From a virus, in IMG/VR virus record IMGVR_UViG_3300021375_000108, positions 1-31,031 of that record: DNA of 31,031 bases; one strand, given 5' to 3'. The translations under genes and the position numbers were made by a program. Below are positions 4,546-29,735 of the stretch, piece after piece. Under the pieces are notes generated by a model, which saw only the letters and a program-made list of their open reading frames with translations, was not told where the DNA came from and made no database searches. How positions within the stretch are numbered: position 1 is the first letter of the stretch; every line of letters begins with the position of its first letter.

Positions 4546-4956
4546 GTGCTCTCTGGTCAATCTCAGCCCAGGATTACCCGGCAATCGTTCACCAGATCGA
4601 CGACAGAGCACCCTTTTTATCCCCTCCCGCACCATTTTGACGTCGGCAGCGCCTCGAGGTCTGCCCGGCCCGATGTTCCCCCGGCCCTACATCCGCCGGC
4701 CCGATCTGCCCGGCCCGATGTTCCCCCGGCCCTACATCCGCCGGCCCGATCTGCCCGGCCCGATGTTCCCCAGGGTCCCCCGGATATCGGGTCATTCTGC
4801 TACCATCCCATGACATGGGCGCCCGCCCACGGCGCGCGGCCCCCTGGGCCGACCAGCGGGTGCTAGGGCCATGTTTCTCACAAATATTCCCATAAAAAAT
4901 GATATGGTGTACTATTATAAGGTACTAATCGCATATAAATAACTTTGGGGGCCCCT
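4546..4956. other. Intergenic region between left arm and packaging genes
   Basis: No gene is supported. The GC-rich part (4640-4860) holds the 45-bp tandem repeats. The part from about 4865 to 4945 is AT-rich and includes TATTATAAG near 4913-4921, the likely place of a promoter for terminase and downstream genes, though I see no good -35 element. Small open frames here just read the repeats as proline-rich peptides. Confidence 0.55.
4660..4771. repeat. 45-bp tandem repeat, about 2.4 copies
   Basis: Units start at 4661, 4706 and 4751 with CTGCCCGGCCCGATGTTCCC; the first two are complete and identical over the 45 bases apart from the edge, the third is truncated after about 20 bases. Units contain several C-runs (G-runs on the minus strand). 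They lie outside genes. Iteron, packaging-site or protein-binding roles are all possible. Confidence 0.85.
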
Positions 4957-6420
4957 ATGAAAGCACCGCGGACCGCGGCCTTAGATGAGAAAGAATTGAA
5001 GCTTCGTCTAAGGCTCGCGCAGCTTGAGCAGAATGAAGCTTGTCGAGATAATTTTTTAAGTTTTGTGAAGACGGTTTGGCCTGAGTTCATTGCTGGCCGT
5101 CATCATAAGATTATAGCGGAGAAGTTGGAGCGAGTAGCGAGCGGTGATTTAAAGCGTTTAATTATTAACATGGCCCCGCGGCACACGAAGAGTGAGTTTG
5201 CGTCATTTTTGTTTCCGGCGTGGATGATGGGCCGCAGTCCGCGAATGAAGATCATTCAGGCGACGCACACGACGGAGTTGGCTGTAAATTTTGGCCGTAA
5301 GACGAAGAATTTGATTGAGAGTGATGAGTACAAGGAGATTTTCCCGAAGGTTAAGTTAGCGTCGGACAGCAAGGCGTCTGGTCGTTGGGACACGTCATCT
5401 GGCGGGATGTATTATGCGGTTGGTGTGGGTTCGAACTTGGCGGGACGCGGTGGTGATTTAGTAATTATTGACGATCCGCATTCAGAGCAGACGGCTATGT
5501 CGAATGCTGGTTTTGAGGATGCTTGGGAGTGGTATACGGGCGGACCTCGTCAGCGTTTACAGCCGGGTGGCAGCATAGTTTTGGTTCAGACGCGTTGGTC
5601 TGAGAAGGACATGACGGGTCAATTAGTTCGTGCGATGGCGAAGGACCCTTTAGCGGACCAGTGGGAGATTGTTGAGTTACCGGCGATATTTGAGGATGGT
5701 TCTCCGTGTTGGCCGGAGTATTGGAGTTTAGAAGATTTAACCGCGGTCCGCGCATCAATACCTCCGAGCAAGTGGAATGCTCAGTATCAGCAGAATCCGA
5801 CGGGTGAGGAGAATGCGATCATTCCACGGGAGTGGTGGAAGCGTTGGGATAAGGACCGGGTCCCTCAGTTAGAGTATGTCATACAGAGTTACGACACGGC
5901 TTTCAGTAAGCGTGAGACTTCGGATTACAGTGCGATAACGACGTGGGGTGTATTTTATCCGAATGAGGGTGGGAGTGGTCCCAATTTAATATTGTTAGAC
6001 AGTAAGAAGGGCCGTTGGGATTTTCCGGATTTAAAAAAAGAGGCTTTAGATTTGTATAGGTTTTGGGAGCCGGACACGGTTATCATTGAGGCTAAGGCGA
6101 GTGGTTTGCCGTTGACGCAGGAGTTGCGGAACATGGGCATTCCGGTAGTAAATTTCACGCCTAGTAGGGGTAATGACAAGGTTTCGCGAGTACACAGTGT
6201 GAGTCCGTTGTTTGAGGCGGGCATGGTTTGGGTCCCTGACGAGACTTGGGCGGATGAGATGATTGAGGAGGTGGCGGCATTTCCCAATGGGGAGTATGAT
6301 GATTTGGTTGATAGTATGACGCAGGCTTTAATGCGGTATCGTCAGGGTAACTTTATTCAGTTGCCGGTGGACGACTGGGAAGATGACGCAACATCTGTTA
6401 AGGTGCGTGCGTATTATTAA
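4957..6420 (+). CDS. terL: Terminase large subunit (packaging ATPase and nuclease)
   Basis: The 487-residue protein has both halves of a phage packaging motor. In the ATPase half are a Walker A-type loop APRHTKSE (73-80), Walker B LVIIDD (168-173) and the coupling segment IVLVQTRW (207-214). In the RNase H-like nuclease half are SYDTAFS (311-317, D313), VIIEAK (375-380, E378) and GEYDDLVDSMTQAL (445-458) with the late acidic residues. The protein pumps DNA through the portal and cuts the concatemer. ATG 4957 follows a GGGGG run and is preferred over TTG 4945. Its codons are less GC-rich than those of the left arm, marking a compositional change at this boundary. Length and motif order are typical. 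Confidence 0.95.
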   Translation: MKAPRTAALDEKELKLRLRLAQLEQNEACRDNFLSFVKTVWPEFIAGRHHKIIAEKLERVASGDLKRLIINMAPRHTKSEFASFLFPAWMMGRSPRMKIIQATHTTELAVNFGRKTKNLIESDEYKEIFPKVKLASDSKASGRWDTSSGGMYYAVGVGSNLAGRGGDLVIIDDPHSEQTAMSNAGFEDAWEWYTGGPRQRLQPGGSIVLVQTRWSEKDMTGQLVRAMAKDPLADQWEIVELPAIFEDGSPCWPEYWSLEDLTAVRASIPPSKWNAQYQQNPTGEENAIIPREWWKRWDKDRVPQLEYVIQSYDTAFSKRETSDYSAITTWGVFYPNEGGSGPNLILLDSKKGRWDFPDLKKEALDLYRFWEPDTVIIEAKASGLPLTQELRNMGIPVVNFTPSRGNDKVSRVHSVSPLFEAGMVWVPDETWADEMIEEVAAFPNGEYDDLVDSMTQALMRYRQGNFIQLPVDDWEDDATSVKVRAYY

Positions 6421-6433
6421 GGGTTTTTGTCTA

Positions 6434-9400
6434 ATGGACCGATACCGATTACAAGACTCGGAAATTGACAAAGCGATCGAAGGGGGTGGTAGCCGTGTAG
6501 ATTTAGGTGCCGGTGCTCCTCGGCCCACGGACCGTGGTTTTTCTGTAGGGATTCCGGGTTTAGCCGGTTTTGGTGTTAAACCAGAGATGTTTGCGGAGGG
6601 TTTTTTTGGGCGTGAGAGCCCGAGAGACGGTTTCACGGTTAGTCAAAGTGGCGGCGGTGGTAAGTTTGGCGCAACGGTTGTGGGTCCTGACGGCCATAGG
6701 TTCACAGCAGGTGTTCCGTTGAATTACCTCAGTGGCGAAGTTGAGTTCGGTGACGAATTACAAGCTCAAGGTGCCCCGGAAAACATAGAATTTGGCACGA
6801 ACGGCATTGAGCGGGGGCCGATTGAGGGTAAATATGAGTCTCCGGGAGGTTTCAGTGCAAGCGGCTCTTATGATCCCAGAACGGGTGAAGGTGGGTTTTA
6901 TTTAAACAAGGCTTTTAAGTTTGAAGATGGCGGCGCGGTTGGCGGCATAGGTCCGTATTTGGATCAGTTGGAAGAGCCTAGAAGGTTCGCGAACGGCGGT
7001 CGGATCAGCATGGAGCCCGCGCGTTATTCGGGTCCTATAACGACTTTGGCTCCGGTGTTTCAGAGACAAGGGTCGTTCGGTTCGGGTATTGGCGGACTTT
7101 TCGACAGTCCAGTAAGTTCCGCCGCGGACCCGGTTAGTGCAGAGGTATTGCCGGACGGTTTAACGGGTTCCGGAGATGGCGGTGGTGGCGGTTATGGGGA
7201 CCCTGACCCCTCGGCGACGGGTCCATCGCAGCCAGGAGGTTTGGCGGATTTAGCGGGCTATGCCGCGACAGCACTTGGTATGACGACGGGCCTTGGTGCT
7301 GTCTCGGCTATAGCAAATGCAGTTTCTCACGCGACAACGGGAAAAAGCATATTCGGTCATATAACGGACATGCTAGGTTTTGGGGATGATGCTCCCGCCG
7401 ACCCTGGTATGGAAACTGGTCATAGCGCGGGCATGGGTATTTCCGGCTATGGCAGTGATGACACCGGGAATACGGGGGATGATGCTCCAGGGCCAGGGGG
7501 TAACGAGGGTGCTGTCGGCGGTACAGGTAACGATGACGATGGCGACGACACCGGAGGTGGAGATGGCGACGACGGTGGACCGGGTGAAGGTGACGACGGT
7601 GGCCCGGAAGGGTTAGCGGACGGCGGCGTTGCAGGTTTGTCCGCGGCCCGTGAGTTTAAGGATGCGGGCACCTTCCCGGACTTTATGGCCGCTCGTTTAG
7701 GGTCCATGGACCGTCGGGATGACGCGGTAGCCCGTAAGCTTCTGGGCGGAAACGCGTCCTCACAAGTTTTGGATCAAGCTAGTCGCATTCTTAATTCTTC
7801 GAGCGATCCGATAAGGACCTTTGCAGACGGGGGTTCTGTTCGATCTCAGAGGTTGCCCCCTCGCAGGCCGCCCCTTTTAGGTGGTGTTCCAGAAGTTTCG
7901 CCGAGCCCCGAATTAGTTCGTATGGCGGATAATGAGTTTGTTCATACGGTTGACCCTTACATTACAAACCCCATTGCACGTATGGAGCTTTTGCGTCGCA
8001 CGGCCAATCCGGGAGTTTACGAGGGCGAAGAATTTTCCCCGAACAACGAGCCGACTAGTATTTCGGACTTTTTAAGCGTACGTCCGGTCCTAGACAACGA
8101 AAACGACGTGAGCCAAAACTTCTATTTGGGTCCGTTGCGTAACCGCGGCGCAAGCCTAGCCGAACTTAAAAAGCGATTGGCACCCGGTGTCCGCGGAGCG
8201 AACTTTCCAACACCCAAATCGTTGACCGGGTCTGAAACCGGAATACTTCTTAATCAGACCGCTCCCCCTTTCGTAGAAAAATACCACAGAGACCCGGATA
8301 CGGGACAAATATCTTCTGAAGTTAAAACCGTTTCTCAAGCGGAAACGCTGCAACACGAACTAATCCATGCTGGATTAAGTCACCTTCGAATTACCGCGTC
8401 CGATCCCAACTCTCCTCCTTATGTAAGCGTAAAAGGTAAAGATTCGGCCTTGGGCAGGATTTTGCAACCAAATCCAGATAAGAGGCCCAGCGTTTCTAAC
8501 GATCACTTGGCGTACATAAATATTTTAGACGTAGCCTCCGCAATTAAATCGGGTAGTTTAGACCCGACGGACGAAGAACAGCTAGATACTTGGGGCTTCC
8601 TAAACGGAAACAGTGTTTCCGCCATGCAGGCCGGGATTGAATTATCGAGGGATCGCTCGTCGGAAGAAGACAAGGGCTTGAGGATACCCGAAAAGTATCA
8701 AGTAAAGGAGATCAGTTTAGAGGCGGCTAAGGAGTTAAAAAAAGCGGAAGAAGAGCTTATGGAACAAATTAAACCTGTCTTAAAAAGAGACGGTTTTTCC
8801 CAAGCGCATATTGAGGCCGCTTTTGGTCCGGAAGAAGAAACCTATTTCCTCAGGTTATTACGGTCCGCCTCGGACTTGTTTTCTATAGAGACCTTTGCAG
8901 ACGGGGGTTCTGTTCGATCTCAGCGGTTGCCCCCGGACAGGCCGCCCCGTTTAGGTGGTATCTCACGCGTTCCGCGTCGAGATTTAGTTCGTCTAGCGGA
9001 CGACGAGTTTGCTCACACTGTGGCTCCGCACATCGAAGGTAGTCCTTTAGCTTCTGCGGAACTTATGATGCGTCAGACAAGACCGGGATCAGGCGGCTCA
9101 GGAACTGAAATCCCTTTATTGTCGGATGATCTTGACGTTCGTCCCGTAACATTACGTCGTTTTACGGATACCCCCCTTCTCGATCAAGCATACCGAGGTC
9201 GCCTTCGCCATCTCGATTCGGGAAAGCCTCTTTATGATAGTTCAGATTTTGAGGGGCGCTTTCCGATACCTGTACATGAAGGCTTGCAAGGTTTGATGTA
9301 CGGGGGAGACAGGTTTAATCCAGAAACTGTGGACCCCAGAGTTAAAGGGGTATTGGTCAACAACATTACAGACCGATACGGAAGAACCCAGGCTGAAGCG

Positions 9401-10126
9401 TCTGGAGATACTTTAGAGGGTCTCAGTGACGCCGCACGAGCAAACAATGAACGCGTGGCTAGAGTGTCTCGACATGAACTGGAACATGCTTTTTTAACTC
9501 GCGCTCGCAACAGTTTATCTGATTATATCAAAACAACGGGTACAGATTCGGCGCTAGGAACTCTTTTGACTACAAATGTTCTTGGAGAAAGAGGCCGCGG
9601 CGGAAAAAACGAACACCGGTTTTTGATAAATATATATGACGCATCAAGTCTTGTAGACGATGGTAGGATGGACCCTCGTAACCAAAAACAACTGGACCTG
9701 TACTCAAAGATGCACGATTTAAGTAGTGGGGAAATGAAGGCTGCCGTGGCTTTGTCGGAAACCGGGAATGTCGCGGATTTACCTGAAAAATATAAAGACC
9801 GTGAATATCAACCTCTTGTTGACCTTGTGCGTCGGGCGGAAGAAGAAGCCGCAACTCAGATAAGGTCTGCGTTAAATTCGGAGGGTTACACCAAAGCTCA
9901 AATTGATAGTGCCCTTGGAGCACACGATTTTGAGCGCATGCCAAAAACAAATTTTGTTGGTATGGACTCTACGGGTAATAATGATGACACGAAAAATGTT
10001 CTTCGTGCGGAACCGCATTTTGTTGGTATGGACTCTACGGGTAATAATGATGACACGAAAAACCCTGTGAGCCGGTTCCGGCGCTTTAGGGAGACATTTC
10101 GGTCGATCTTAGGAGGAATAAACTAA
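6434..10126 (+). CDS. Large protein with two HExxH metallopeptidase-like domains
   Basis: This 1230-residue protein lies between terminase and portal. The first 200 residues are glycine-rich beta-like sequence. Residues about 330-400 are an extreme Gly/Asp linker. Then come two related domains, each opened by FADGGSVRSQRLPP (residues 463 and 821). The first has HELIH at 641-645, the second HELEH at 1014-1018, both fitting the zincin HExxH motif with catalytic glutamate. Both continue with DSALG, then a conserved histidine (H691 in NDHLAYINI, H1061 in NEHRFLINI) that could be the third zinc ligand, then LDP/MDP, EKY and a C-terminal helix ending AFG/ALG. The recurring motif FEDGGAV, FANGGRI, LADGGVA, FADGGSV is typical of marine phage virion proteins. 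I infer a virion-linked peptidase, possibly in maturation or injected into the host. A 46-bp repeat lies near the 3' end. ATG 6434 is chosen over 6383, which lies inside terL. Confidence 0.7.
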   Translation: MDRYRLQDSEIDKAIEGGGSRVDLGAGAPRPTDRGFSVGIPGLAGFGVKPEMFAEGFFGRESPRDGFTVSQSGGGGKFGATVVGPDGHRFTAGVPLNYLSGEVEFGDELQAQGAPENIEFGTNGIERGPIEGKYESPGGFSASGSYDPRTGEGGFYLNKAFKFEDGGAVGGIGPYLDQLEEPRRFANGGRISMEPARYSGPITTLAPVFQRQGSFGSGIGGLFDSPVSSAADPVSAEVLPDGLTGSGDGGGGGYGDPDPSATGPSQPGGLADLAGYAATALGMTTGLGAVSAIANAVSHATTGKSIFGHITDMLGFGDDAPADPGMETGHSAGMGISGYGSDDTGNTGDDAPGPGGNEGAVGGTGNDDDGDDTGGGDGDDGGPGEGDDGGPEGLADGGVAGLSAAREFKDAGTFPDFMAARLGSMDRRDDAVARKLLGGNASSQVLDQASRILNSSSDPIRTFADGGSVRSQRLPPRRPPLLGGVPEVSPSPELVRMADNEFVHTVDPYITNPIARMELLRRTANPGVYEGEEFSPNNEPTSISDFLSVRPVLDNENDVSQNFYLGPLRNRGASLAELKKRLAPGVRGANFPTPKSLTGSETGILLNQTAPPFVEKYHRDPDTGQISSEVKTVSQAETLQHELIHAGLSHLRITASDPNSPPYVSVKGKDSALGRILQPNPDKRPSVSNDHLAYINILDVASAIKSGSLDPTDEEQLDTWGFLNGNSVSAMQAGIELSRDRSSEEDKGLRIPEKYQVKEISLEAAKELKKAEEELMEQIKPVLKRDGFSQAHIEAAFGPEEETYFLRLLRSASDLFSIETFADGGSVRSQRLPPDRPPRLGGISRVPRRDLVRLADDEFAHTVAPHIEGSPLASAELMMRQTRPGSGGSGTEIPLLSDDLDVRPVTLRRFTDTPLLDQAYRGRLRHLDSGKPLYDSSDFEGRFPIPVHEGLQGLMYGGDRFNPETVDPRVKGVLVNNITDRYGRTQAEASGDTLEGLSDAARANNERVARVSRHELEHAFLTRARNSLSDYIKTTGTDSALGTLLTTNVLGERGRGGKNEHRFLINIYDASSLVDDGRMDPRNQKQLDLYSKMHDLSSGEMKAAVALSETGNVADLPEKYKDREYQPLVDLVRRAEEEAATQIRSALNSEGYTKAQIDSALGAHDFERMPKTNFVGMDSTGNNDDTKNVLRAEPHFVGMDSTGNNDDTKNPVSRFRRFRETFRSILGGIN
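7816..7860 (+). repeat. Copy 1 of near-identical domain-opening sequence
   Basis: Bases 7816-7849 are identical to 8890-8923 (34 bases), and after one mismatch the next ten bases also match. The segment encodes the FADGGSVRSQRLPP opening of the first HExxH domain. The rest of the two domains is much more diverged. Confidence 0.85.
8890..8934 (+). repeat. Copy 2 of near-identical domain-opening sequence
   Basis: Second copy of the 7816-7860 element, 1074 bases downstream, opening the second HExxH domain. Matching continues in pieces to about 8957 (CAGGCCGCCCC shared). Confidence 0.85.
9951..10062 (+). repeat. 46-bp perfect direct repeat, period 66
   Basis: Bases 9951-9996 are repeated exactly at 10017-10062. 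Each copy encodes FVGMDSTGNNDDTKN. The two copies are separated by 20 bases. They lie near the C-terminus of the HExxH protein, just ahead of the portal gene. Confidence 0.92.
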
Positions 10127-12591
10127 TGGCTGAAGAGCGTAACGGCTTTCAAAGCAGCTTAATGGAAACCAGTGTTCCTTCTGAGTTGGACCCAGACGTC
10201 CTGGCTGCCGAAATCGAGTTGGAGCTTCCGGGGACTTTGGAAAACGCTTCGTACGAGTTAGAGGACGAAGACGAAGGCCCCGTTGAGGTTGTGGCTTTAG
10301 AAGACGGCAGCGTCGAGGTGGACTTTGATCCGTCGGACGAGCGGGGCGAATCCGATGATTTCTACGCCAACTTGGCAGAAGAAATACCGGATCGTGAACT
10401 AGGTCGTATTTCCAGCGAGCTTTCTGGGGATTTTGATTCTAATAAGGCGAGCAGGCAGGAATGGGAGGAAGCTTATGCGGATGGTTTGGACCTTCTGGGC
10501 TTCACTTACAACGAGCGTACGCAACCGTTTAGGGGCGCTTCGGGCGTCACTCATCCGCTTTTGGCGGAGGCTGCAACGCAATTTCAAGCTCAAGCGTTTA
10601 ACGAATTGTTACCTTCTTCGGGCCCTGTCCGAACTGTGGTCATGGGTAACGAAACTCGTGAGAAAGTTGCGCAAGCTAGGCGCGTAAAGACTTTCATGAA
10701 CTATTACATCACGAGTGTGATGGAAGAATATACGCCTGATATGGATCAAATGTTGTTCTACCTGCCTTTGGCGGGTTCAACGTTTAAAAAGACGTATTAT
10801 GACGAAACGTTAGGTCGCGCGGTTTCTAAGTTTGTCCCGTCGGAGAACCTTGTCGTTCCTTACGAGACGTCTGATTTGGATACATGTCCTAACATTACGC
10901 AGGTTGTTCGAATGTCTTTGAACGATTTGCGTAAAAACCAAGTTGCGGGTTTCTATCGTGACGTTGAAGTAAGCCCTGCACAGCAAAACACTTCAGGCGT
11001 GGGTCAAGAAATTGATAGAATTGAGGGTTTTGAGCCCAATCAAGTAGACTACGACTGCACTCTTTTGGAGTGTCATGTCGATTTGGACTTGGAAGGTTAC
11101 GAAGACCTTGACGAAGACGGCGAACCCACCGGAATTAAAGTTCCGTACATCGTAACGTTGTCTCAGGATAACGGAGAGGTGTTGTCTGTTAGGCGGAACT
11201 ACCAAGAAGATGACACTTTAAAACGTAAAATACAGTATTTTACGCACTATAAGTTCCTTCCGGGCTTCGGCTTTTACGGCCTGGGCCTAATTCACACGAT
11301 TGGTGGTTTGTCAAGAACGGCAACGTCGGCGTTACGCCAGTTAATTGATGCTGGGACCCTTTCAAACCTCCCCGCGGGTTTCAAAGCGCGTGGTTTGCGC
11401 ATTCGGGACGATGACGATCCGCTTCAGCCCGGAGAGTTCCGGGACGTGGATGCTCCGGGGGGCGCGATCCGAGATAGTTTGATGCCGCTTCCGTTTAAGG
11501 GTCCGGATCAGACGTTATTCAATCTTTTAGGTTTTGTGGTTCAAGCTGGTCAGCGGTTTGCTACGATAACCGATTTAAAGGTTGGAGACGGCAACGATCA
11601 AGCTGCGGTAGGTACTACCATGGCGATGCTGGAGCAGGGCTCTAGGGTCATGAGCGCCGTTCACAAGCGCCTTCACTATGCTATGCGCCAAGAGTTTAAG
11701 ATTTTGGCTCGTGTGATGTCGGAAAGCCTGCCGCAAGAATATCCTTATGCCGTGGCGGGCGACGACCAATCGGTTATGGCTCAAGACTTTGATGACCGCG
11801 TGGACGTAATTCCTGTGAGCAATCCGAATGTATTTAGTCAGGCTCAAAGGATTGTCTTGGCTCAGACAAAGATGCAATTGGCGTCACAGGCCCCGGAAAT
11901 TCACAACATGCACGAAGTGTATCGTGACATGTACGAGGCTTTAGGCGTATCGGACGTAGATCGTTTAATGAAATCTATTCCGGCGGAAATTCCCGAACCG
12001 TTGGACCCGGCTCAAGAAAACATCAACGCTTTAGATATGTTGCCGTTGAAAGCTTTTGAAGGTCAGAACCATCAAGCTCACATCACCTCGCATTTAATTT
12101 TTGCGAGCAGTGCCTTGGTTGGTCAAGCACCCCCGATAGCTATGAGCCTACAGAAACATATTATGGAGCATGTGCGGATTGCAGCGAGCGAGAGGTCTGT
12201 GTCTCAGTACATGCAGCAAGTTCAACAGCGCGGTGGTCAGGTTGCAAACGAAGACGAGATGCTACAGATAGAGCAGCAAACGGCTCAATTTATTGCAGAA
12301 GGTTTGCAGCAAGTAAAAGAACTTTCTGGTCAGCTTTCCGGGGCTGGTGCTCCGGACCCTGTGGTTCAGCTTAAGGAGAAAGAGCTGGAACTTCGGGCGC
12401 AGTCCGACCAGACGGATGCGCAAATCGACCAAGGCAAGTTACAATTAGATCAGCAGACCGCCGAAATGCGAGCACAACAGTTCCAAGAGCGGATTGCAGC
12501 GCAGGAGCGTCAAACGCAGGCCCGCATTGATGCGGCAATGGAACGAGAAATTTTGAAACAACAACCTGATGGTGGAGGTATGCCACAATGA
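10126..12591 (+). CDS. Portal protein
   Basis: The 821-residue product fits large portal proteins of P22-like and marine short-tailed phages, which form the dodecameric gate for DNA at one capsid vertex. The first 90 residues are acidic and low in structure. The core has FRGASGVTHPLL, NELLPSSGPVRTVVMG, a conserved GLGLIHTIGGLSRTATSALR region (about 385-404) and LIDAGTLSNLP. From about residue 690 the protein is glutamine-rich and predicted coiled coil, like the portal barrel of P22. AGGAGG (10111-10116) lies 9 bases before ATG 10126, which overlaps the upstream stop (TAATG). The downstream gene overlaps as ATGA. Length and neighbours agree with the call. Confidence 0.88.
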   Translation: MAEERNGFQSSLMETSVPSELDPDVLAAEIELELPGTLENASYELEDEDEGPVEVVALEDGSVEVDFDPSDERGESDDFYANLAEEIPDRELGRISSELSGDFDSNKASRQEWEEAYADGLDLLGFTYNERTQPFRGASGVTHPLLAEAATQFQAQAFNELLPSSGPVRTVVMGNETREKVAQARRVKTFMNYYITSVMEEYTPDMDQMLFYLPLAGSTFKKTYYDETLGRAVSKFVPSENLVVPYETSDLDTCPNITQVVRMSLNDLRKNQVAGFYRDVEVSPAQQNTSGVGQEIDRIEGFEPNQVDYDCTLLECHVDLDLEGYEDLDEDGEPTGIKVPYIVTLSQDNGEVLSVRRNYQEDDTLKRKIQYFTHYKFLPGFGFYGLGLIHTIGGLSRTATSALRQLIDAGTLSNLPAGFKARGLRIRDDDDPLQPGEFRDVDAPGGAIRDSLMPLPFKGPDQTLFNLLGFVVQAGQRFATITDLKVGDGNDQAAVGTTMAMLEQGSRVMSAVHKRLHYAMRQEFKILARVMSESLPQEYPYAVAGDDQSVMAQDFDDRVDVIPVSNPNVFSQAQRIVLAQTKMQLASQAPEIHNMHEVYRDMYEALGVSDVDRLMKSIPAEIPEPLDPAQENINALDMLPLKAFEGQNHQAHITSHLIFASSALVGQAPPIAMSLQKHIMEHVRIAASERSVSQYMQQVQQRGGQVANEDEMLQIEQQTAQFIAEGLQQVKELSGQLSGAGAPDPVVQLKEKELELRAQSDQTDAQIDQGKLQLDQQTAEMRAQQFQERIAAQERQTQARIDAAMEREILKQQPDGGGMPQ

Positions 12592-20603: not shown

Positions 20604-20892
20604 GCGTTTTAATGGAGGCGGGTCCGTAAGCGGGTCTGAAGGCTCGCGGGTTAACATAGGAGCGGGAGCTAAGGGCTCAACTAGGGGTGCGCCCGATTCT
20701 GATATGGGTCCCCGGATTAAGAGGGCCAATAAGCGTCCGAAGCTACCCGATGGCGCGTTTGACCCCACGAAAGGCCCGAAGCCGAAGAAGATGCGTGGCG
20801 GCGGCATGGTTAAGAAGAAGCCTGTGCAAAAGATGCGTGGCGGCGGCATGGTTAAGAAGATGCGCGGCGGCGGCATGGTTAAGAAGAAATAA
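20587..20892 (+). CDS. Basic protein with MRGGGMVKK repeats, 101 aa
   Basis: The protein is basic and low in complexity. It opens with RRFNGGGSVSGSEG, carries GAGAKGSTRG, and ends in three copies of MRGGGMVKK (residues about 70-100). The FNGGGSV segment matches the FADGGSV type motif of the large HExxH protein, and GGGMVKK tails are frequent in marine phage proteins. It may bind DNA or take part in virion assembly; nothing is proven. AGGAG precedes ATG 20587. It overlaps the upstream gene by 17 bases and the adaptor gene starts one base after its stop. Confidence 0.65.
   Translation: MAMKPRRFNGGGSVSGSEGSRVNIGAGAKGSTRGAPDSDMGPRIKRANKRPKLPDGAFDPTKGPKPKKMRGGGMVKKKPVQKMRGGGMVKKMRGGGMVKKK
20803..20888 (+). 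repeat. Three repeats of about 24-36 bp encoding MRGGGMVKK
   Basis: The run ATGCGTGGCGGCGGCATGG is present near 20791 and 20833, with a third copy differing by one base (CGC for CGT) near 20860. Copies are separated by AAGAAG-type linkers, the middle one by PVQK codons. Such arrays can change in copy number. Confidence 0.75.
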
Positions 20893-20893
20893 G

Positions 20894-21562
20894 ATGGCCA
20901 CTTCGGGAAGCACAGATTTTGAGTTAGACGTCGCTGATTATGTAGAAGAGGCGTTTGAACGTTGTGGCGTGGAGGTTCGTACAGGTTACGATCTTAAAAC
21001 GGCAAAACGTTCTCTCAATCTGTTGCTTGCAGATTGGGCTAATCGAGGCTTAAATCAATGGACCATTAAACAACGTTCGTTAACGCTGGTTGTAGGCGAC
21101 GGGGAATACGATCTAGGAACAGACGTCATTGACGTGTTGTCTGTGATTGTCCGTCGGGATGGAACAGATTATTCCATGGATCGTCTGAGCCGGGACGAAT
21201 ACCTTACTATTCCTACCAAAACCACGCAGGGCCGCCCTAATCAATTCTTTTTAGACCGTCAGCTCACGCCAAATTTAAAGATTTGGCCGACTCCGGAAAA
21301 CACCTCGGATGCTGTGATTTACGATGCGCTCACTCGTATGGATGACGCGGATGTTTACACAAATACCATGGATATGCCCTTTCGTTTTTATCCGTGTTTA
21401 GCCGCAGGATTGTCGTACTACTTGTCTTTGAAACGCGCTCCAGAGCGCACTCAACTCTTAAAAGCCGTATATGAGGAGGAGTTTCAACGCGCGGCCGAAG
21501 AAGATCGCGACAGGGCCTCCTTTAATGTTGCCCCGAAATATGACTATTACGGGGGCCGATAA
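20894..21562 (+). CDS. Head-tail adaptor / tail accessory protein (P22 gp4-like)
   Basis: The 222-residue protein looks like the adaptor that binds the portal ring and closes the filled head (P22 gp4 / T7 gp11 type). Typical features are the N-terminal helix FELDVADYVEEAFERCGVEV, the segment TAKRSLNLLLADWANRGLNQW, then SLTLVVGDGEYDLGTDVIDV and RDGTDYSMDRLSRDEYLTI, and the C-terminal helix bundle ending YEEEFQRAAEEDRDRA. These are a recognisable marine phage set. ATG 20894 is chosen over the upstream extension because the extension runs through the repeat gene in another frame. The stop overlaps the next ATG. Confidence 0.72.
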   Translation: MATSGSTDFELDVADYVEEAFERCGVEVRTGYDLKTAKRSLNLLLADWANRGLNQWTIKQRSLTLVVGDGEYDLGTDVIDVLSVIVRRDGTDYSMDRLSRDEYLTIPTKTTQGRPNQFFLDRQLTPNLKIWPTPENTSDAVIYDALTRMDDADVYTNTMDMPFRFYPCLAAGLSYYLSLKRAPERTQLLKAVYEEEFQRAAEEDRDRASFNVAPKYDYYGGR

Positions 21563-21867
21563 TGTCAAAGTTTGCACTGGGTAAGAACTCTTACGCCATC
21601 TGTGACCGTTCGGGATTCCGATATCCTTACAGGGTTATGCTGAAGGAGTGGAACGGTCTTTTGGTGGGCCCGGATCAATATGAGCCAAAACACCCTCAAT
21701 TGGGTCCTTTTCGAAAGGTGTCTGATCCCGAGGCGCTTCGCGATGCGCGACCGGATCGTATAGAACCCCTGGATGTTTACGTGGGTTTGCCCTTAATAGA
21801 GGACCCCACCCTTCGGCCCTGCCCCGGTTTTGGTCAGGTCGGCTTAGTAACGGTGAGCACGCCATGA
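21562..21867 (+). CDS. Small conserved protein, zinc-finger-like but lacking cysteines, 101 aa
   Basis: The layout AICDRSGFRYPYRVMLKEWNG, then GPDQYEPKHPQ, then SDPEALRDARPDRIEP matches a small marine phage family that normally has CDxCG and CxxCxExxHPQ zinc ligands. Here only one cysteine is left in the first pair (CDRS) and the second pair is absent (VGPDQYEP). The fold may be kept without zinc. The C-terminus ends VGLVTVSTP, shared with the unrelated protein ending at 30031. ATG 21562 overlaps the previous stop (TAATG), and the end overlaps the next ATG (ATGA), with GGTGAG inside the last codons as ribosome binding site. Confidence 0.62.
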   Translation: MSKFALGKNSYAICDRSGFRYPYRVMLKEWNGLLVGPDQYEPKHPQLGPFRKVSDPEALRDARPDRIEPLDVYVGLPLIEDPTLRPCPGFGQVGLVTVSTP

Positions 21868-22514
21868 GTTTCACATACGATCAGCTAAAACAGGCCGTTC
21901 AAGACTACACCGAAAACGACGAAACGTCTTTCGTTAACAATCTTCCGGTGTTTATCCGTCAGGCCGAAGAGCGCATTCTTAAAAGCGTGCAATTGAGCTT
22001 TTTTCGCAAGAACGTGACGGGGAACATGACCTCGTCCAATAAATATTTGGCCGTTCCCAGCGATTTTTTGGCTCCTTTTTCGCTTTCGTTTGTAGATTCA
22101 AACAGTGACCACGTCTTTTTGGATTTTAAAGACGTAGATTTTGTTCAGTCTTTTCACCCAAACTCCGCAACAACCGGAAACCCTCGGTATTATGCTGTTT
22201 TTGACGTGGACAACTTCGTTTTAGGTCCTACTCCGGACTCCGCCTACGCCGTGGAATTACACTATTTCTACAGGCCCGCCAGCTTGACAGCAGGGTCCGG
22301 TTCGGGAACTACGTGGTTAAGCGAAAATGCAGAATTAACCCTTTTGTATGGAACCTTGATTGAGGCATATATCTATATGAAAGGTGAACCGGACATTATG
22401 GCTCAATACGAAAAACGGTTTGTAGAAGCAATTCAGGGCCTAAAAATGTTTGGGGAAGCCAAAGAGGTTACCGACGAATATAGGACCGGAAAGGTGATTA
22501 GGCCCAAACAATGA
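21864..22514 (+). CDS. Phage adaptor protein (DUF6682-like)
   Basis: The 216-residue product resembles a family named phage adaptor protein. The N-terminal helix FVNNLPVFIRQAEERILKSV, the strand FFRKNVTGNMTSSNKYLAVP, SDFLAPFSLSFVDS, HYFYRPASLT and WLSENAELTLLYGTLIEAYI are typical, as is the C-terminal helix. It would sit at the neck between portal/gp4-like protein and tail. ATG 21864 is coupled to the preceding gene through GGTGAG and ATGA. The stop overlaps the next ATG (ATGA). Confidence 0.7.
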   Translation: MSFTYDQLKQAVQDYTENDETSFVNNLPVFIRQAEERILKSVQLSFFRKNVTGNMTSSNKYLAVPSDFLAPFSLSFVDSNSDHVFLDFKDVDFVQSFHPNSATTGNPRYYAVFDVDNFVLGPTPDSAYAVELHYFYRPASLTAGSGSGTTWLSENAELTLLYGTLIEAYIYMKGEPDIMAQYEKRFVEAIQGLKMFGEAKEVTDEYRTGKVIRPKQ

Positions 22515-23240: not shown

Positions 23241-23872
23241 TGTCGGGCATTGTCGTCCCCCTTGGCGGCTGGGGCCGCTCTGGCTGGGGCGCAATGCCTT
23301 GGGGCCAAACGGACCTACCTAAAGCCACCGGCTCTGTAGGTTCTGTTTCGGTCACGGCGGATGCTATTACCGCTGTCACGGGTGTAGCTGCCACCGGCTC
23401 TGTAGGTTCTGTTTCGGTCACGGCGGACGCTATTACCGCTGTCACGGGTGTAGCTGCCACCGGCTCTGTAGGTTCTGTTTCGGTCACGGCGGACGCTATT
23501 ACCGCTGTCACGGGTGTAGCTGCCACCGGCTCTGTAGGTTCTGTTTCCGTAGGTATTTTTGTTACGGTAAACGTAACGGCACCTAGCGAGGCTCAGGGTC
23601 AGGTTGGTTTGGCAACTGCTGCGGCAAACGCGGACGTTTCCGTCACAGGCCTAACCGCCGACGGGCTCGTGAATCAGGTGCTGGTGTATGGTCAGATTGT
23701 TCCAGACCAAAATCCGGGGTATAATGAGGAAACTCCGGTTCAGACTCCGGGGTATTCAGAGGCCACTCCGGTTCAGACTCCGGGGTACTCTGCGGAAACT
23801 CCGGTTCAAACTCCGGGGTATTCAGAGGCCAGCCCCTCCCAAAACCCCGACTGGGTTCAAATTGCAGCATGA
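23240..23872 (+). CDS. Tandem-repeat virion-type protein, 210 aa
   Basis: After a Gly/Trp-rich start (PLGGWGRSGWGAMPWG) the protein has three full and one partial copy of a 22-residue beta repeat (ATGSVGSVSVTADAITAV core), then an unrelated beta segment, then four to five copies of an 11-residue repeat (TPVQTPGYSE type) and the end NPDWVQIAA. Both repeat kinds are known from marine phage tail or virion proteins, which suggests an elongated outer protein. ATG 23240 overlaps the upstream stop. The repeats are near-identical in DNA, so copy number may vary. Function is inferred from composition only. Confidence 0.65.
   Translation: MSGIVVPLGGWGRSGWGAMPWGQTDLPKATGSVGSVSVTADAITAVTGVAATGSVGSVSVTADAITAVTGVAATGSVGSVSVTADAITAVTGVAATGSVGSVSVGIFVTVNVTAPSEAQGQVGLATAAANADVSVTGLTADGLVNQVLVYGQIVPDQNPGYNEETPVQTPGYSEATPVQTPGYSAETPVQTPGYSEASPSQNPDWVQIAA
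23324..23549 (+). repeat. 66-bp tandem repeat, about 3.4 copies
   Basis: Units begin at 23324, 23390, 23456 and 23522 with GCCACCGGCTCTGTAGG. The copies differ by very few bases. They encode a 22-residue beta repeat. Confidence 0.93.
23708..23853 (+). repeat. 33-bp tandem repeat, about 4.5 copies
   Basis: Units at 23741, 23774 and 23807 (CAGACTCCGGGG and variants) are 33 bases apart, with diverged copies before and after. They encode an 11-residue TPGYSE-type repeat. Confidence 0.9.
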
Positions 23873-23883
23873 GGTGTTAAAAA

Positions 23884-26800
23884 ATGCCAAGCACATATAC
23901 GCTTAACAACGGTATTGAAATAATTGCTACCGGAGAGCAGTCGGGTACGTGGGGCGACACGACCAATACTAACTTTGAGCTGGTGGACACGTCATTAGAC
24001 GGACAAGTTTCTGTAACGCTTGCAGCCACGGGAAGTTCCGGTTCTCCGAACACGTTGCCCGTTAGCGATGGGGCGGCCTCCAACGGTCGCAATCGTTTGG
24101 TTATTTTTGGCGACGGGGGAGATTTGGGGGGCACCGTTTTTGTTCAGCTTACTCCGAATGACGCCGAAAAAATTGTGTATGTTCGTAACAACCTGTCAGG
24201 CTCGCGCAGCATACTCTTGTTTCAAGGGACGTATAACTCCAGCAATGACTACGAGGTTCCCGCGGGAACGACCGCCGTTGTTTTCTTTAATGGTGCGGGC
24301 TCTGGTGCGGTAGCGGCAAACGTCTTTAACAACGCGTATTTTGACGCAATTACAACCACTACGGTGGATACCACGAACATTGAGGTTACTAACCTAAAAG
24401 CTAAGGATGGAACCGCCGCGGGTTCCATCGCAGATAGCTCCGGTGTAATCACCATTGCGTCTTCTGTGTTGACGACCACCGATATCAACGGGGGGACCGT
24501 AGACGGCATTACGTCGTTGTCTATGCCAAGTGGCACTGTAGACATTCAAGCTACGCATCCTACCGGCACCTCAAACGTCGGTTTTGGTAGCGGCACCTTT
24601 GCTAACATTGAGGCTGGTGGTACTCTTAATACGGCTATGGGTGTTAACGCCCTACAAGATTTAACTACGGGTGACAGTAACACAGCTATTGGGTATCTGG
24701 CCGCTTCTAATAGCACAACAGCAATTGGAACTACCGCAATTGGTAGAAACGCTATTGGCGTCGGCGTTCTTACTGGCAATTATAATACGGCTCTTGGCTA
24801 CGCAGCAGGTCAAGATTTAACCAGCGGCACCTTTAACTTTTTTGGTGGCTACGCAGCAGGCGGTAACGCAACTACTGCCGATGAGACTGTCGCTATTGGT
24901 AAAAACGCTATTGCCTCAGGTGTTCTTACTGGCGCTTATAATACAGCTATTGGCACAAGCGCTGGCAACGATTTAACCAGCGGCGCATACAACAACTTTA
25001 TCGGCTTTTCAGCCGGCGCTAACGCAACTACTGCCGACAGTAATGTTGCTATTGGTAGACAGGCTATTGGCTTAGGCGTTCTTACTGGCTCAAATAATGT
25101 TGCTATTGGTTATCAAGCTGGCTACGATTTAACCAGCGGCGATCACAACATTCTTTCGGGCTTTCAAGCCGGCTCTAACGTAACGACAGGTTCGGGAAAC
25201 ATATTTCAGGGCAACGAAGCGGGGGAATTTGCAACTACTGCTAGTTATGGCATCGCTATAGGTTATGAAGCCATTGGCTCAGGTGTTATGACTGGTGATA
25301 ATAACATCGCTATTGGTCGAATAGCCGGTCATGATTTGACTAGCGGCACCTTCAATAATTTTATGGGCTATTTCGCTGGCGCTAACGCAACTACTGCTTC
25401 AAATACAATTGCTATTGGTAGTAGCGCAATTGGTTTAGGTATCCTTACTGGCACTGCTAATATCGCAATTGGAGAACAGGCGGCCTACGATTTAACCAGC
25501 GGCGCTTACAACAATTTTATGGGTTTGCAAGCAGGTTATAACGCAACTACTGCCGATAACACTGTCGCTATTGGTAGAGCGGCTATTGGCTCAGGTGTTC
25601 TTACTGGTGACAACAACGTCGCTATTGGTTATCTAGCCGGTTATGATTTAACTAGTGGCGGAAGTAACTTCTTTGGTGGCGTACGTGCGGGGCAGACCGT
25701 AACTACTGGCGATAACAATGTTGCTATTGGTGAAAGCTCGCTTGGCGGTGCGGCTCTAACGGGCGACCGTAACATCGCTATTGGTTATCAAGCGGGCTAC
25801 GATTTAACCAGTGGCACTTACAATGACTTTTCTGGCTATCGAGCAGGTTTTAATTTAACAACCGGCTCATACAACATACTTCAGGGTCATCAAGCAGGCA
25901 ATAACGCAACTACTGCTAATTATGGCATCGCTATAGGTTATGACGCAATTGGCACTGGTATTATGACTGGTACTGATAATACCGCTATCGGTCGATTAGC
26001 AGGTGATGATTTAACCAGCGGCACATACAATACTTTTATAGGTTATACAGCAGGCCGAAACGCAACTACTGCTAATAACACCGTCGCTATTGGTAGAAGC
26101 GCCATTGGCTTCGGTGTTATGACCGGCACAGATAACACCGCTATTGGCTTTTCTGCCGGTTTTGATTTGACCAGTGGCACCTACAACAATTTTATGGGCT
26201 ATCGGGCCGGATATAACGCAACGGAAGCCGATAATACTATTGCTATTGGTAGATTAGCAATTGGTTTAGGTGTTGTTACTGGAGGACAAAATATTGCTAT
26301 TGGATATGAAGCTGGTTACGATTTAACCAGTGGCGGAAACAATGTCACGATTGGATACAGAGCAGGATATGAACTAACAGAAGGGCTTGGTAATACTTTA
26401 ATCGGTGGTTTTGATGCTGGCGGGGATATAACCACCGGAGATTACAACACGATTCTTGGCTATCAGGCAGGTTCTAAGGCAACTATTGCCAATAGCACAG
26501 TCGCTATTGGCCGTAACGCAATTGGCTTAGGTGTTCTTACTGGTGACGCCAACGTCGCTATTGGTCAAAGTGCAGGCTACGATTTAACCAGTGGTGCATA
26601 CAACGTCTTTATGGGCTTCGTAGCAGGCGGTAACGTAACCACAGGCGCTGACAATACAATTCTCGGCACGAATGCTGGTATCTCACTAACAACCGGCAGC
26701 AACAACACCATCATTGGACACGACGCAGCCCCAACATCCGCTAGCGTTTCTAACGAGATCACACTCGGCAATGCGTCTATTGCGACCATCCGCGCTCAAG

Positions 26801-27135
26801 TTACGTCCATCACAGCACTGTCGGATCGCAGAGACAAGAAGGACATCAAAGACCTGTCCGTTGGTCTGGACTTTGTTAACTCGCTGAACCCCGTCGAGTT
26901 TACGTGGAATATGCGTGACGGTGCTAAAGTTGGCCAGAAGGAAGCAGGATTCATTGCTCAAGAATTAGATGAAGCGCAGCAGGACGCAGGCGTTGAGGAG
27001 CTTATGAACCTTGTGCTAAAGACCAATCCAGACAGGCTTGAAGCCGCCCCAGGTAAATTGATCCCAGTCTTGGTTCGAGCCATCCAAGAACTGTCTGATG
27101 AAATTAACATTCTGAGAGAGAAACTAAATGACTGA
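23884..27135 (+). CDS. Tail fibre with YadA-like beta-roll repeats and S74 chaperone domain
   Basis: The 1083-residue protein begins with a phage fibre N-terminus (GIEIIATGEQSGTWGDTTN; about 1-150) common in marine phages. From about residue 245 to 950 it consists of repeats built from NTAIG/NVAIG, GVLTG, YDLTSG, NNFMGY and AGxNATTA elements, like the left-handed beta-roll of YadA-type trimeric adhesins; the DLTSG element occurs about 11 times. At the end is an S74 peptidase/intramolecular chaperone domain: SDRRDKKDI starts at residue 980, followed by NPVEFTW, AGFIAQELDEA and a coiled coil (IPVLVRAIQELSDEINILRE). This domain helps trimerisation and then cuts itself off. The serine before DRR is the expected cleavage residue. 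The fibre most likely binds the host surface. GAGGTG precedes ATG 23884. Confidence 0.88.
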   Translation: MPSTYTLNNGIEIIATGEQSGTWGDTTNTNFELVDTSLDGQVSVTLAATGSSGSPNTLPVSDGAASNGRNRLVIFGDGGDLGGTVFVQLTPNDAEKIVYVRNNLSGSRSILLFQGTYNSSNDYEVPAGTTAVVFFNGAGSGAVAANVFNNAYFDAITTTTVDTTNIEVTNLKAKDGTAAGSIADSSGVITIASSVLTTTDINGGTVDGITSLSMPSGTVDIQATHPTGTSNVGFGSGTFANIEAGGTLNTAMGVNALQDLTTGDSNTAIGYLAASNSTTAIGTTAIGRNAIGVGVLTGNYNTALGYAAGQDLTSGTFNFFGGYAAGGNATTADETVAIGKNAIASGVLTGAYNTAIGTSAGNDLTSGAYNNFIGFSAGANATTADSNVAIGRQAIGLGVLTGSNNVAIGYQAGYDLTSGDHNILSGFQAGSNVTTGSGNIFQGNEAGEFATTASYGIAIGYEAIGSGVMTGDNNIAIGRIAGHDLTSGTFNNFMGYFAGANATTASNTIAIGSSAIGLGILTGTANIAIGEQAAYDLTSGAYNNFMGLQAGYNATTADNTVAIGRAAIGSGVLTGDNNVAIGYLAGYDLTSGGSNFFGGVRAGQTVTTGDNNVAIGESSLGGAALTGDRNIAIGYQAGYDLTSGTYNDFSGYRAGFNLTTGSYNILQGHQAGNNATTANYGIAIGYDAIGTGIMTGTDNTAIGRLAGDDLTSGTYNTFIGYTAGRNATTANNTVAIGRSAIGFGVMTGTDNTAIGFSAGFDLTSGTYNNFMGYRAGYNATEADNTIAIGRLAIGLGVVTGGQNIAIGYEAGYDLTSGGNNVTIGYRAGYELTEGLGNTLIGGFDAGGDITTGDYNTILGYQAGSKATIANSTVAIGRNAIGLGVLTGDANVAIGQSAGYDLTSGAYNVFMGFVAGGNVTTGADNTILGTNAGISLTTGSNNTIIGHDAAPTSASVSNEITLGNASIATIRAQVTSITALSDRRDKKDIKDLSVGLDFVNSLNPVEFTWNMRDGAKVGQKEAGFIAQELDEAQQDAGVEELMNLVLKTNPDRLEAAPGKLIPVLVRAIQELSDEINILREKLND
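24630..26740 (+). repeat. Degenerate coding repeats of the fibre beta-roll
   Basis: About eleven copies of a 150- to 210-base unit share blocks such as ATTTAACCAGCGGC and TTGCTATTGG-type codons. A basic unit is near 52 residues, with longer units produced by extra NxxIG modules. Shared blocks could recombine and change fibre length. Confidence 0.8.
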
Positions 27136-27331
27136 CGCTGAGAAAAAAACCATCACGGTCAACGACAAGTTTTACAATGTCAAAGACCTCAGCGAGCAAG
27201 AGATTGTTATGGTCAACCATGTGGCTGATCTGGACCAAAAGCTGATGGCTGCCCGGTTCAACGTAGATCAATTGCAAGTCGCTCGTGATTCGTTTGTCGG
27301 CATGTTAACTAACTCACTTGAAAAGGAATAA
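27128..27331 (+). CDS. Small coiled-coil protein, DUF6447-like, 67 aa
   Basis: The product opens with a short beta part (KTITVNDKFYNVKDLS) then one helix (LDQKLMAARFNVDQLQVARD) with coiled-coil character. It resembles DUF6447-type small proteins found next to tail fibre genes of marine viruses. The start overlaps the fibre stop by 8 bases, so the two are coupled. A fibre chaperone or a regulator of its assembly is plausible by position. Confidence 0.6.
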   Translation: MTDAEKKTITVNDKFYNVKDLSEQEIVMVNHVADLDQKLMAARFNVDQLQVARDSFVGMLTNSLEKE

Positions 27332-27335
27332 ATCT

Positions 27336-27572
27336 ATGCCAGAAGAAGAAATCGAAATGACGGCAGAAGATATTGCGCGGCACTACAGTGCGTCGATGGA
27401 CTCTGTAAACCTCATTAACGCTGTGCTGGCATCGCCTGACGACTACGCAGATGACCCCACAGTGCTTCAACGCAATATTGACCACCTCAAAGGCACCATC
27501 GTCCGTGACATCTGGACGACGGAAGACATGACGCCTTTCAATGATGCGATTGCGGCGGGTGAGGCTGCATAA
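27336..27572 (+). CDS. Conserved small phage protein, 78 aa
   Basis: The protein (EEEIEMTAEDIARHYSASMD, SVNLINAVLASP, LQRNIDHLKGTIVRDIW, TTEDMTPFNDAIAAG) matches a small helical family next to fibre genes in marine phages. Function is unknown. ATG 27336 with AAAAGGA 8-10 bases upstream is chosen over the in-frame ATG 27318 within the preceding gene. It is acidic and probably a helical bundle. Confidence 0.65.
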   Translation: MPEEEIEMTAEDIARHYSASMDSVNLINAVLASPDDYADDPTVLQRNIDHLKGTIVRDIWTTEDMTPFNDAIAAGEAA

Positions 27573-27620: not shown

Positions 27621-29735
27621 ATGCCATTCACAAAACTGGAGTTCCGGCCCGGCGTAAACCGCGAAACAACTTCGTACGCAAACGAAGGTGGGTGGTTTGA
27701 TTGCGACAAAGTAAGGTTCCGTTTCGGTGCTCCGGAAAAAATAGGGGGCTGGACACCTACCACCTCTTCTTATTTTTTAGGGACTTGTCGCGCATTGCAC
27801 CCTTGGGTAGCCCTAGACGGCTCTAACTATCTAGGTGTGGGAACGAACCTTAAATATTATATTAACGAAGGCGGCGGGTATAATGACATAACGCCTGTTC
27901 GCAGCACGACTTCTGCGGGAGACGTAACTTTTTCCACCAAGGCCAACACGTTAAACGGCGATGTCGGCGTAGATGACACCTCTATAACGCTTACCAGTGG
28001 GTCCGGGTTCCCGGCCAATGGCGTTATTAAAATCAATTCTGAAATAATTTTTTATACCGCTCTTAGTGGAAACGTTCTTTCAGGGCTGACTAGGGGGTAT
28101 TCAAGCACAACGACTGCTAGTCATTCTTCGGGTGCCGCGGTGACCTGCGCAACCTTAATAGTTACGGACACGGATCACGGAGCCCTCGAAAATGATTTCG
28201 TAACCTTTTCCGGAGCGGCGTCTTTAGGCGATCAAATTACAGCCGATGTCTTAAACCAAGAATATGAAATCCGCGCCGTGATTAGCGCAAACTCTTATTT
28301 GATAGATGCTCGAGAGGTTTCTTCCGTAAACGCTATATCTACGTCCACGGGATATTCTCCAGTGTTTGTGTTTGCCACAACGTCGGATTCCGGTTCGGGC
28401 GGAAGTTCCACGGTAGGGGCGTATCAAATAAACTCTGGTTTGGACAGCAGCGTTTTTGGAACAGGGTGGGGAGCCGGAACGTGGGGCCGTGGAACGTGGG
28501 GATCGGGCTCGGCGTTAACAGCAAGCGGTGCGACGTTGCGGATTTGGAGCCACGATAATTTTGGTGAAGACCTGTTGTTTAACGTTCGGGACCAGGGGAT
28601 TTTTTATTGGGATAAAACTAGCGGGCTTTCTGCGCGAGGTGTGGAGCTTTCCAGTTTATCTGGCGCTAACACCACTCCCACAATAGCTAAAAAAGTTTTG
28701 GTTTCAGATGCGGACCGCCACATCATTGCTTTTGGTTGTGACCCGCAAAATAATATAGGCGTTCAAGACCCGCTTTTAATACGTTTTTCCTCGCAAGAAA
28801 GTTTGACGGACTGGGAGTCTACGGCAACCAACACCGCAGGTGATCTCAGGATAGGTTCCGGATCAAAGATCATAACTGCGATAGAAACACGTCAACAAGT
28901 TTTGGTGTTTACAGACACGTCCTTACACGCCATGCAGTTTCTGGGGCCTCCGTTTACTTTTGGCATAAATACCATTTCTGAAAACATCACGACGGCGGGG
29001 CCCTTGGCGGCTGTTGCTGTTGAGGACATGGTATTTTGGATGGGTGAGGAAGAGTTTTATATTTACGCTGGCGGCGTTCAAAGGCTTCCGTGTACCATAC
29101 GGGATTACATTTTCTCGGACATAAACGAAAACCAACTTGAAAAAGTCACGGCAAGCACCAACACTTCTTTCTCCGAAATTTGGTGGTTTTATCCGTCTTC
29201 AACGAGTTCCGAATGCGACCGTTATGCGGTGTATAATTACCAACAAAAGATTTGGTATTATGGTGTTTTAAATCGCACTTGTTGGCTGGACCGCGGGATA
29301 AACGCGTATCCTATTGCGGCGTCGACGGACCAATCTTTGTATTTCCAAGAGTTTGGTTTAGATGACGGGAGTACCGATCCGGCCACAGGGATTTCCTCCT
29401 ACATCGAAAGCAGTCAGGTCAGTTTGGGGGCCGGGGACCGTTACATGCTGGTAAGTCGTTTAATACCAGACATGACGTTCCGGGACAGTACCAACGACAG
29501 TCCGACGGCCACGATGACGGTTCAAGTTCGGAACTATCCGGGTGGGAACTATACCAACAGCACGGGGTCCTCGGTCCAAAGAACGGCCACGGTTCCGGTA
29601 GAACAGTTTACCGAAGACGTCTTCCTGCGGCTTCGAGGTCGGTCCATGGCCTTTAAAATACAGAGCACGGACACCGGCACAACTTGGCGATTGGGGGCAC
29701 CGAGGGTAGAAATGCGTCCGGACGGGAGACGGTAA
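27621..29735 (+). CDS. Large tail protein (nozzle/hub-like), 704 aa
   Basis: The opening TKLEFRPGVNRETTSYANEG and WFDCDKVRFRFGAPEKIGGW marks a marine phage family usually annotated as tail protein, comparable in place to T7 gp12 or P22 gp10 (tail nozzle), but I cannot prove that homology. Residues about 95-170 form a beta domain (DDTSITLTSGSGFP, SEIIFYTALSGNVLSGLTRG), followed by DHGALENDFVTFSGAASLG, an FCCH-like segment. The C-terminal half has beta-propeller-like strands (WWFYPSSTSSECDRYAVYNY, IWYYGVLNRTCWLDRG). No good ribosome binding site precedes ATG 27621. The stop overlaps the next ATG (TAATG). Confidence 0.68.
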   Translation: MPFTKLEFRPGVNRETTSYANEGGWFDCDKVRFRFGAPEKIGGWTPTTSSYFLGTCRALHPWVALDGSNYLGVGTNLKYYINEGGGYNDITPVRSTTSAGDVTFSTKANTLNGDVGVDDTSITLTSGSGFPANGVIKINSEIIFYTALSGNVLSGLTRGYSSTTTASHSSGAAVTCATLIVTDTDHGALENDFVTFSGAASLGDQITADVLNQEYEIRAVISANSYLIDAREVSSVNAISTSTGYSPVFVFATTSDSGSGGSSTVGAYQINSGLDSSVFGTGWGAGTWGRGTWGSGSALTASGATLRIWSHDNFGEDLLFNVRDQGIFYWDKTSGLSARGVELSSLSGANTTPTIAKKVLVSDADRHIIAFGCDPQNNIGVQDPLLIRFSSQESLTDWESTATNTAGDLRIGSGSKIITAIETRQQVLVFTDTSLHAMQFLGPPFTFGINTISENITTAGPLAAVAVEDMVFWMGEEEFYIYAGGVQRLPCTIRDYIFSDINENQLEKVTASTNTSFSEIWWFYPSSTSSECDRYAVYNYQQKIWYYGVLNRTCWLDRGINAYPIAASTDQSLYFQEFGLDDGSTDPATGISSYIESSQVSLGAGDRYMLVSRLIPDMTFRDSTNDSPTATMTVQVRNYPGGNYTNSTGSSVQRTATVPVEQFTEDVFLRLRGRSMAFKIQSTDTGTTWRLGAPRVEMRPDGRR

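Follow-up and report, generated by a model that had tools for sequence, protein, structure and literature searches.

The S74 domain (PF13884) acts as an intramolecular chaperone of the protein that carries it. It is located at the C-terminus of phage spikes and fibres such as the K1F endosialidase and the T5 L-shaped fibre, where an enzyme or a triple beta-helix tip precedes it and where a serine and a lysine stand five residues apart. Its mechanism is also described in a study of Alteromonas phages, the consulted part of which reports that fibre-and-chaperone modules are exchanged between unrelated phages (PMC10579305), and the consulted part of another study describes proteins of polinton-like viruses in which S74 is joined to repeated domains (PMC12220804). 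A pelagiphage tail fibre published in 2014 combines S74 with a YadA-like (3S6L) region and a distal part that varies (Front Microbiol 2014 5:27, PMC3909814, in the sections available to us), so fibres comparable to the one analysed here are already known. In bacterial adhesins, the heads of YadA and BpaC consist of a long run of short beta layers of about 14 residues, with rare 15-residue layers in UspA1 (PMC9543794, in the sections available to us).

The DNA analysed here is an IMG/VR virus record of 31,031 bases (hereafter the window), which contains genes for a terminase (4945–6420), a portal (10126–12591) and head proteins, and in which no tRNA was found. The portal is ~50% identical to the portals of the Pelagibacter phages HTVC027P and HTVC023P and of phage DSL-LC04, and two window proteins at 20687–22514 match the SU10 adaptor family. 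In all likelihood this is a short-tailed phage with a genome that extends beyond the record, named relatives being 52–65 kb in length. The GC content of the window is 51.2% as against 35.1% in the HTVC023P stretch, which makes a SAR11 host unlikely. A 704-aa virion protein (27621–29735, + strand), the relatives of which are annotated as stabilization protein, marks the genomic slot of the fibre gene. This slot adjoins a tail-type gene, and it is from the neighbouring genes that a tail location of the fibre is suggested. We consider the gene product to be a host-recognition fibre of a short-tailed phage of aquatic bacteria, made of an anchor, a solenoid shaft and a self-cleaving, trimerising S74 domain, with a shaft array that is exchanged between phages (probability roughly 75%).

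The fibre gene (23884–27135, on the + strand like its parts and the two small genes given below) is an open reading frame of 1083 aa. Its N-terminal anchor (residues 1 to ~165, 23884–24378) is modelled as a small beta domain and is kept in relatives, in agreement with the fibre-type N-terminus proposed in an earlier note on this DNA. An N-terminal alignment comprised the window and 34 of 79 fragments. The anchor has weak matches in 8 phage records. Structure matches of the anchor model are also weak (best Z 6.8; CBA120 TSP4 at 5.9 and T4 gp9 at 4.5 among the rows), and are suggestive of a fibre connector but no more. The anchor is followed by a linker (residues ~166–245, 24379–24618), the coil array (residues 246–957, 24619–26754), a neck (residues 958–979, 26755–26820) and the S74 intramolecular chaperone domain (residues 980–1083, 26821–27132). 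Two small genes lie downstream, namely sm1 (67 aa, 27128–27331), which overlaps the end of the fibre gene and matches phrog_21153 (E 1.6e-17), and sm2 (78 aa, 27336–27572), which matches no Pfam family and has no convincing PHROG.

The window fibre resembles the pelagiphage fibre (PMC3909814, in the sections available to us) in being a marine phage fibre with repeats, S74, a distal part that varies and a region resembling YadA. However, the pelagiphage fibre has a T7-type N-terminus (PF03906) while the window fibre has another anchor, and the coil count and array mosaicism described below have no counterpart in those sections, where we encountered no coil count or block comparison. Proteins matched by the window fibre are fibre, spike and intramolecular-chaperone proteins. 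PHROG families cover such fibre proteins, one matching family being filed under head and packaging, which counts against a tail location, and the NCBIfam search gave no match. Related stretches are found by tblastn in 74 phage records, all at less than 60% identity. The coil-repeat fibres of Roseobacter phages CRP-7 and CRP-1, like those of Pelagibacter phages HTVC111P and HTVC112P and Prochlorococcus phage P-SSM2, are 30–33% identical over 77–81% of the window protein; the neighbourhood of the HTVC111P gene is different from that in the window.

The array consists of 41 coils without interruption, in which all 40 spacings are 17 or 18 residues. A 13-column profile at a threshold of 10 finds these 41 coils in the window protein, whereas 100 shuffled versions yield 0.9 on average and never more than 4; because this profile was trained on the same coils, the spacing is the independent part of the evidence. 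An initial count of 47 coils by a loose regular expression was an over-count and was replaced by the profile count. The coil consensus is GxxNxAIGxxAGxxLTS. Among the 28 coils of 17 residues, Gly 1, Asn 4, Gly 8, Ala 11 and Thr 16 are invariant, and positions 2, 3, 5, 9, 10 and 13 are the most variable. The coils form a higher-order repeat of eleven three-coil units of 52 aa, which align without gaps. An 18-residue coil usually opens the unit and some units are followed by a fourth coil, which explains the figure of about eleven units in the earlier note; that figure describes the 52-aa units correctly, while the basic unit is the finer coil of 17 or 18 residues. The same note had proposed DNA blocks shared among the units. 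At the DNA level, 11 copies of a 170-nt block are present in the window array at an identity of at least 60%, but no run of three consecutive coils within this array reaches 80%. The internal sharing of DNA is therefore old and diverged.

In the window fibre this coil array takes the place that the enzyme or triple beta-helix tip occupies before S74 in the K1F endosialidase and the T5 L-shaped fibre. A Peptidase_S74 match covers residues 980–1036 with E 1.2e-13 and 51.6 bits, above the curated Pfam cut-off of 22. Ser 980 and Lys 985, which we take to be the catalytic pair of S74 self-cleavage, are kept in all 20 aligned rows (19 of the 24 listed S74 fragments, the window standing for locus L001, and locus L010). 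The earlier proposal of an S74 domain with its serine at residue 980 is thus confirmed. The folding helper at the fibre C-terminus probably removes itself.

Comparison with related loci reveals that the number of coils varies widely, as the earlier note had expected. Relatives were taken in two samples of 80 loci (the best-scoring 80 of 152 and the best-scoring 80 of at least 600), and their arrays were taken from assembled metagenomes, a kind of data in which repeats may be joined wrongly. S74 domains that are 98% identical in protein sequence follow arrays of 14, 27, 41, 59–60 and 63 coils. In locus L010 the fibre gene is complete and encodes 615 aa, 14 coils included, although its anchor is 98.5% identical in DNA to that of the window and its flanks are ~92–94% identical. 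In L004 the anchor is 98% DNA-identical and the contig ends after 21 coils, of which coils 10–14 match window coils 9–13. Within the close S74 group, conservation of the array is highest in its last coils and in the neck.

Arrays of different phages share blocks of coils at 82–97% DNA identity, often out of register. Between the window and 83 other arrays, near-identical L005 being set aside, there are 20 runs of at least three coils at 80% DNA identity, located in 12 arrays and for the most part out of register. When the coil order is permuted within each length class, 0.47 runs are obtained on average, with a maximum of 9 in 200 trials. The 12 arrays include near copies (L008/L009 and L006/L013), so the runs are not independent. 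All pairs of the 85 arrays yield 208 runs, 177 of which are out of register. Internal three-coil runs at 80% occur in only 3 of the 85 arrays and the window array is not among them. The raw run rate per coil pair is higher within arrays (56/43,040) than between arrays (208/2,859,805), since the 56 internal runs all come from three arrays and most between-array pairs are unrelated; for this reason the permutation control was used for the window. Internal duplication as a present source of length change was considered and rejected for the window array, in which no such run occurs. The earlier suggestion that array length changes by recombination consequently holds for the exchange of coil blocks between phages but not for recent duplication inside the window array. 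The evidence from these alignments points to such exchange as the source of array variation. Coil-block mosaicism of this kind was not found in the consulted parts of the open-licence papers. In two other loci, L187 (ORF region from 1257) and L185 (from 3100), arrays of 51 and 52 coils contain internal coil runs at 80–90% DNA identity, unlike the window.

The array and S74 are one module that is located behind different anchors, often travelling with a small downstream gene. In 56 of the 80 loci sampled by the downstream gene (the best-scoring of a longer list), the window-type anchor is present in a complete fibre gene. These comprise 48 distinct fibres, of which 10 have at least 8 coils (14 to 47), while the other 38 have other distal parts. 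Conversely, L017, L006 and L021 (GC ~41%) share with the window the linker end, the coils and S74 behind another N-terminus, L011 has a distant N-terminus and L008 and L012 have others again, and all six carry coils of the window kind. In L006, L017, L021 and L011, DNA similarity to the window takes in the linker end (24535–24603), which is 94–97% identical in phages with other anchors, and extends from the S74 part into the downstream genes. The gene sm2 is present behind 25 of 66 coil fibres and behind none of 76 others (Fisher p 2e-10, uncorrected for relatedness), and behind all 12 coil fibres in which S74 is at least 75% identical. The gene sm1 is not specific for coil fibres (19/66 as against 15/76, p 0.24). 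Both counts leave out fibres with an open 3' end, less than 250 bases of downstream DNA or identical last 250 residues. It is possible that sm2 aids assembly of the fibre.

An AlphaFold2 single-chain model of the last 375 residues (20 alignment rows; pLDDT 69.7, pTM 0.52) shows a beta-solenoid to which almost every coil contributes a short strand, followed by the S74 part at lower confidence; the coil blocks mostly have pLDDT of 64–83. Matches of the model in a Foldseek search against the PDB are weak (best E 0.13). S74 relatives are among them, namely 3gw6 at a probability of 0.84 and MyRF ICA at 0.94–0.96, but with E above 1. Viral models matched are phage 'intramolecular chaperone' proteins, FhaB-like adhesins and P-SSM5 proteins. 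On re-alignment with VIA-align, the best solved structures among those listed are right-handed beta-helices, which reach Z 16–17 and include the Sf6 tailspike, pertactin and the Pam1 tailspike. For Sf6 (2.6–4.8 Å over 233–237 residues) and pertactin (3.2 Å over 258 residues) the Z of 16.3–16.7 is accompanied by identities of ~10%, and it has to be read with the moderate confidence of a single-chain model and the fact that repeats can reach a high Z by common arrangement.

These alignments bear on the claim of the earlier note that the array is a YadA-like beta-roll. In that reading, which we regard as doubtful, the array would be a genuine left-handed parallel beta-roll trimer of the YadA type in which every layer has gained 3 or 4 residues. 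The YadA motif GxNSVAIGAxSxAx, with its invariant Gly 8, resembles the coil consensus around its own invariant Gly 8, the layers of UspA1 show that a longer layer occurs at least rarely, and the 42 layers of BpaC have grown from a three-layer unit comparable to the three-coil units of the window (PMC9543794, in the sections available to us). A YadA-like region is also annotated in the pelagiphage fibre (PMC3909814, sections available to us), and the best, though weak, match in a direct search with PF05658 falls inside the array. However, this match scores 13.9 bits against a cut-off of 25, YadA_head is absent from the Pfam search of the fibre up to E 10, YadA-type chains are absent from the PDB matches of a profile of the eleven 52-aa units and none is present among the 50 VIA-align rows listed. 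Layers of the window array measure 17 or 18 residues at every one of the 40 spacings, as against 14 in YadA, and BpaC and YadA heads, in the sections available to us, have an outer-membrane anchor and no S74 (PMC9543794). Because the sequence tests fail and the layer length differs, a YadA roll is not established. What remains is a resemblance in the N-x-A-I-G core, the invariant Gly 8 and the three-layer higher-order repeat as in BpaC, which may reflect a relationship. Two other matches were rejected: porphobilinogen deaminase, the sole match of the 52-aa profile (E 0.28), and PsbO chains, the sole PDB matches of the whole protein by phmmer (E 0.005), which reflect low-complexity similarity in the repeats.

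Whatever the roll, differences in coil number might have been produced by short-read assembly of a repeat, given that every related locus lies on a metagenome contig and that several of these contigs (L004, L005 and L015) end inside the array. We consider this very improbable. Three-coil runs within the window array diverge from one another by more than 20%, a difference large enough for short reads to separate, and most arrays differ in sequence besides number. The identities of shared blocks are 82–97% rather than 100%, which speaks against simple chimeras, and named phages carry coil arrays of other lengths (tblastn matches only). If the variation is real, it could still be neutral: the array might be a mere spacer in which coil number and surface matter little, host choice residing in the tip or in another protein. 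Fixed core positions with variation at few positions are what drift under structural constraint would give, and the conservation of the last coils and neck fits as well. On the other hand, L010 and L004 have anchors 98% identical in DNA, yet many of their coils are without a window counterpart above ~80%. We give this explanation somewhat less than an even chance.

In the host-recognition fibre that we favour, the N-terminal domain would anchor the protein on the virion, presumably at the tail, and the 41 coils would stack to form the shaft, a single long parallel beta-solenoid that at ~0.48 nm per coil would measure ~20 nm. The C-terminal S74 domain would join three chains and assist their folding, and would then cut itself off before Ser 980, so that the mature fibre would consist of shaft and neck and might contact the receptor. 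Recombination between phages would replace the intervening coil array and leave anchor and chaperone in place. Since the coils are in frame and alike at the core positions, exchanges may alter fibre length and surface with the fold intact. More tentatively, and with odds that we place below even, aquatic phages with unrelated anchors may take in-frame blocks of 17/18-residue coils, with one type of S74 cap, from a shared pool that recombines, sm2 being a dedicated assembly or capping partner. If such a pool exists, fibre length and surface are reshuffled at a sub-domain scale. The findings suggest that phages whose anchors differ exchange modules smaller than a domain, and sm2, as a small linked gene, may help coil-array fibres to assemble. 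The natural series of 14 to 63 coils behind a near-identical chaperone lends itself to the question of which of the two, fibre length or coil surface, determines adsorption.

Other features of the window are an ORF of 1247 aa (6383–10126), which separates the terminase gene from the portal gene and matches neither PHROG nor Pfam families, and an exact tandem repeat of 45 nt in 2.5 copies (4660–4771). A near-exact 66-nt tandem repeat (22 aa) is present at 23324–23547 in the gene directly upstream of the fibre gene. Its full copies number 3 in the window, L010 and L004, and 2 in L005 and L015, contigs that are otherwise more than 99.9% identical.
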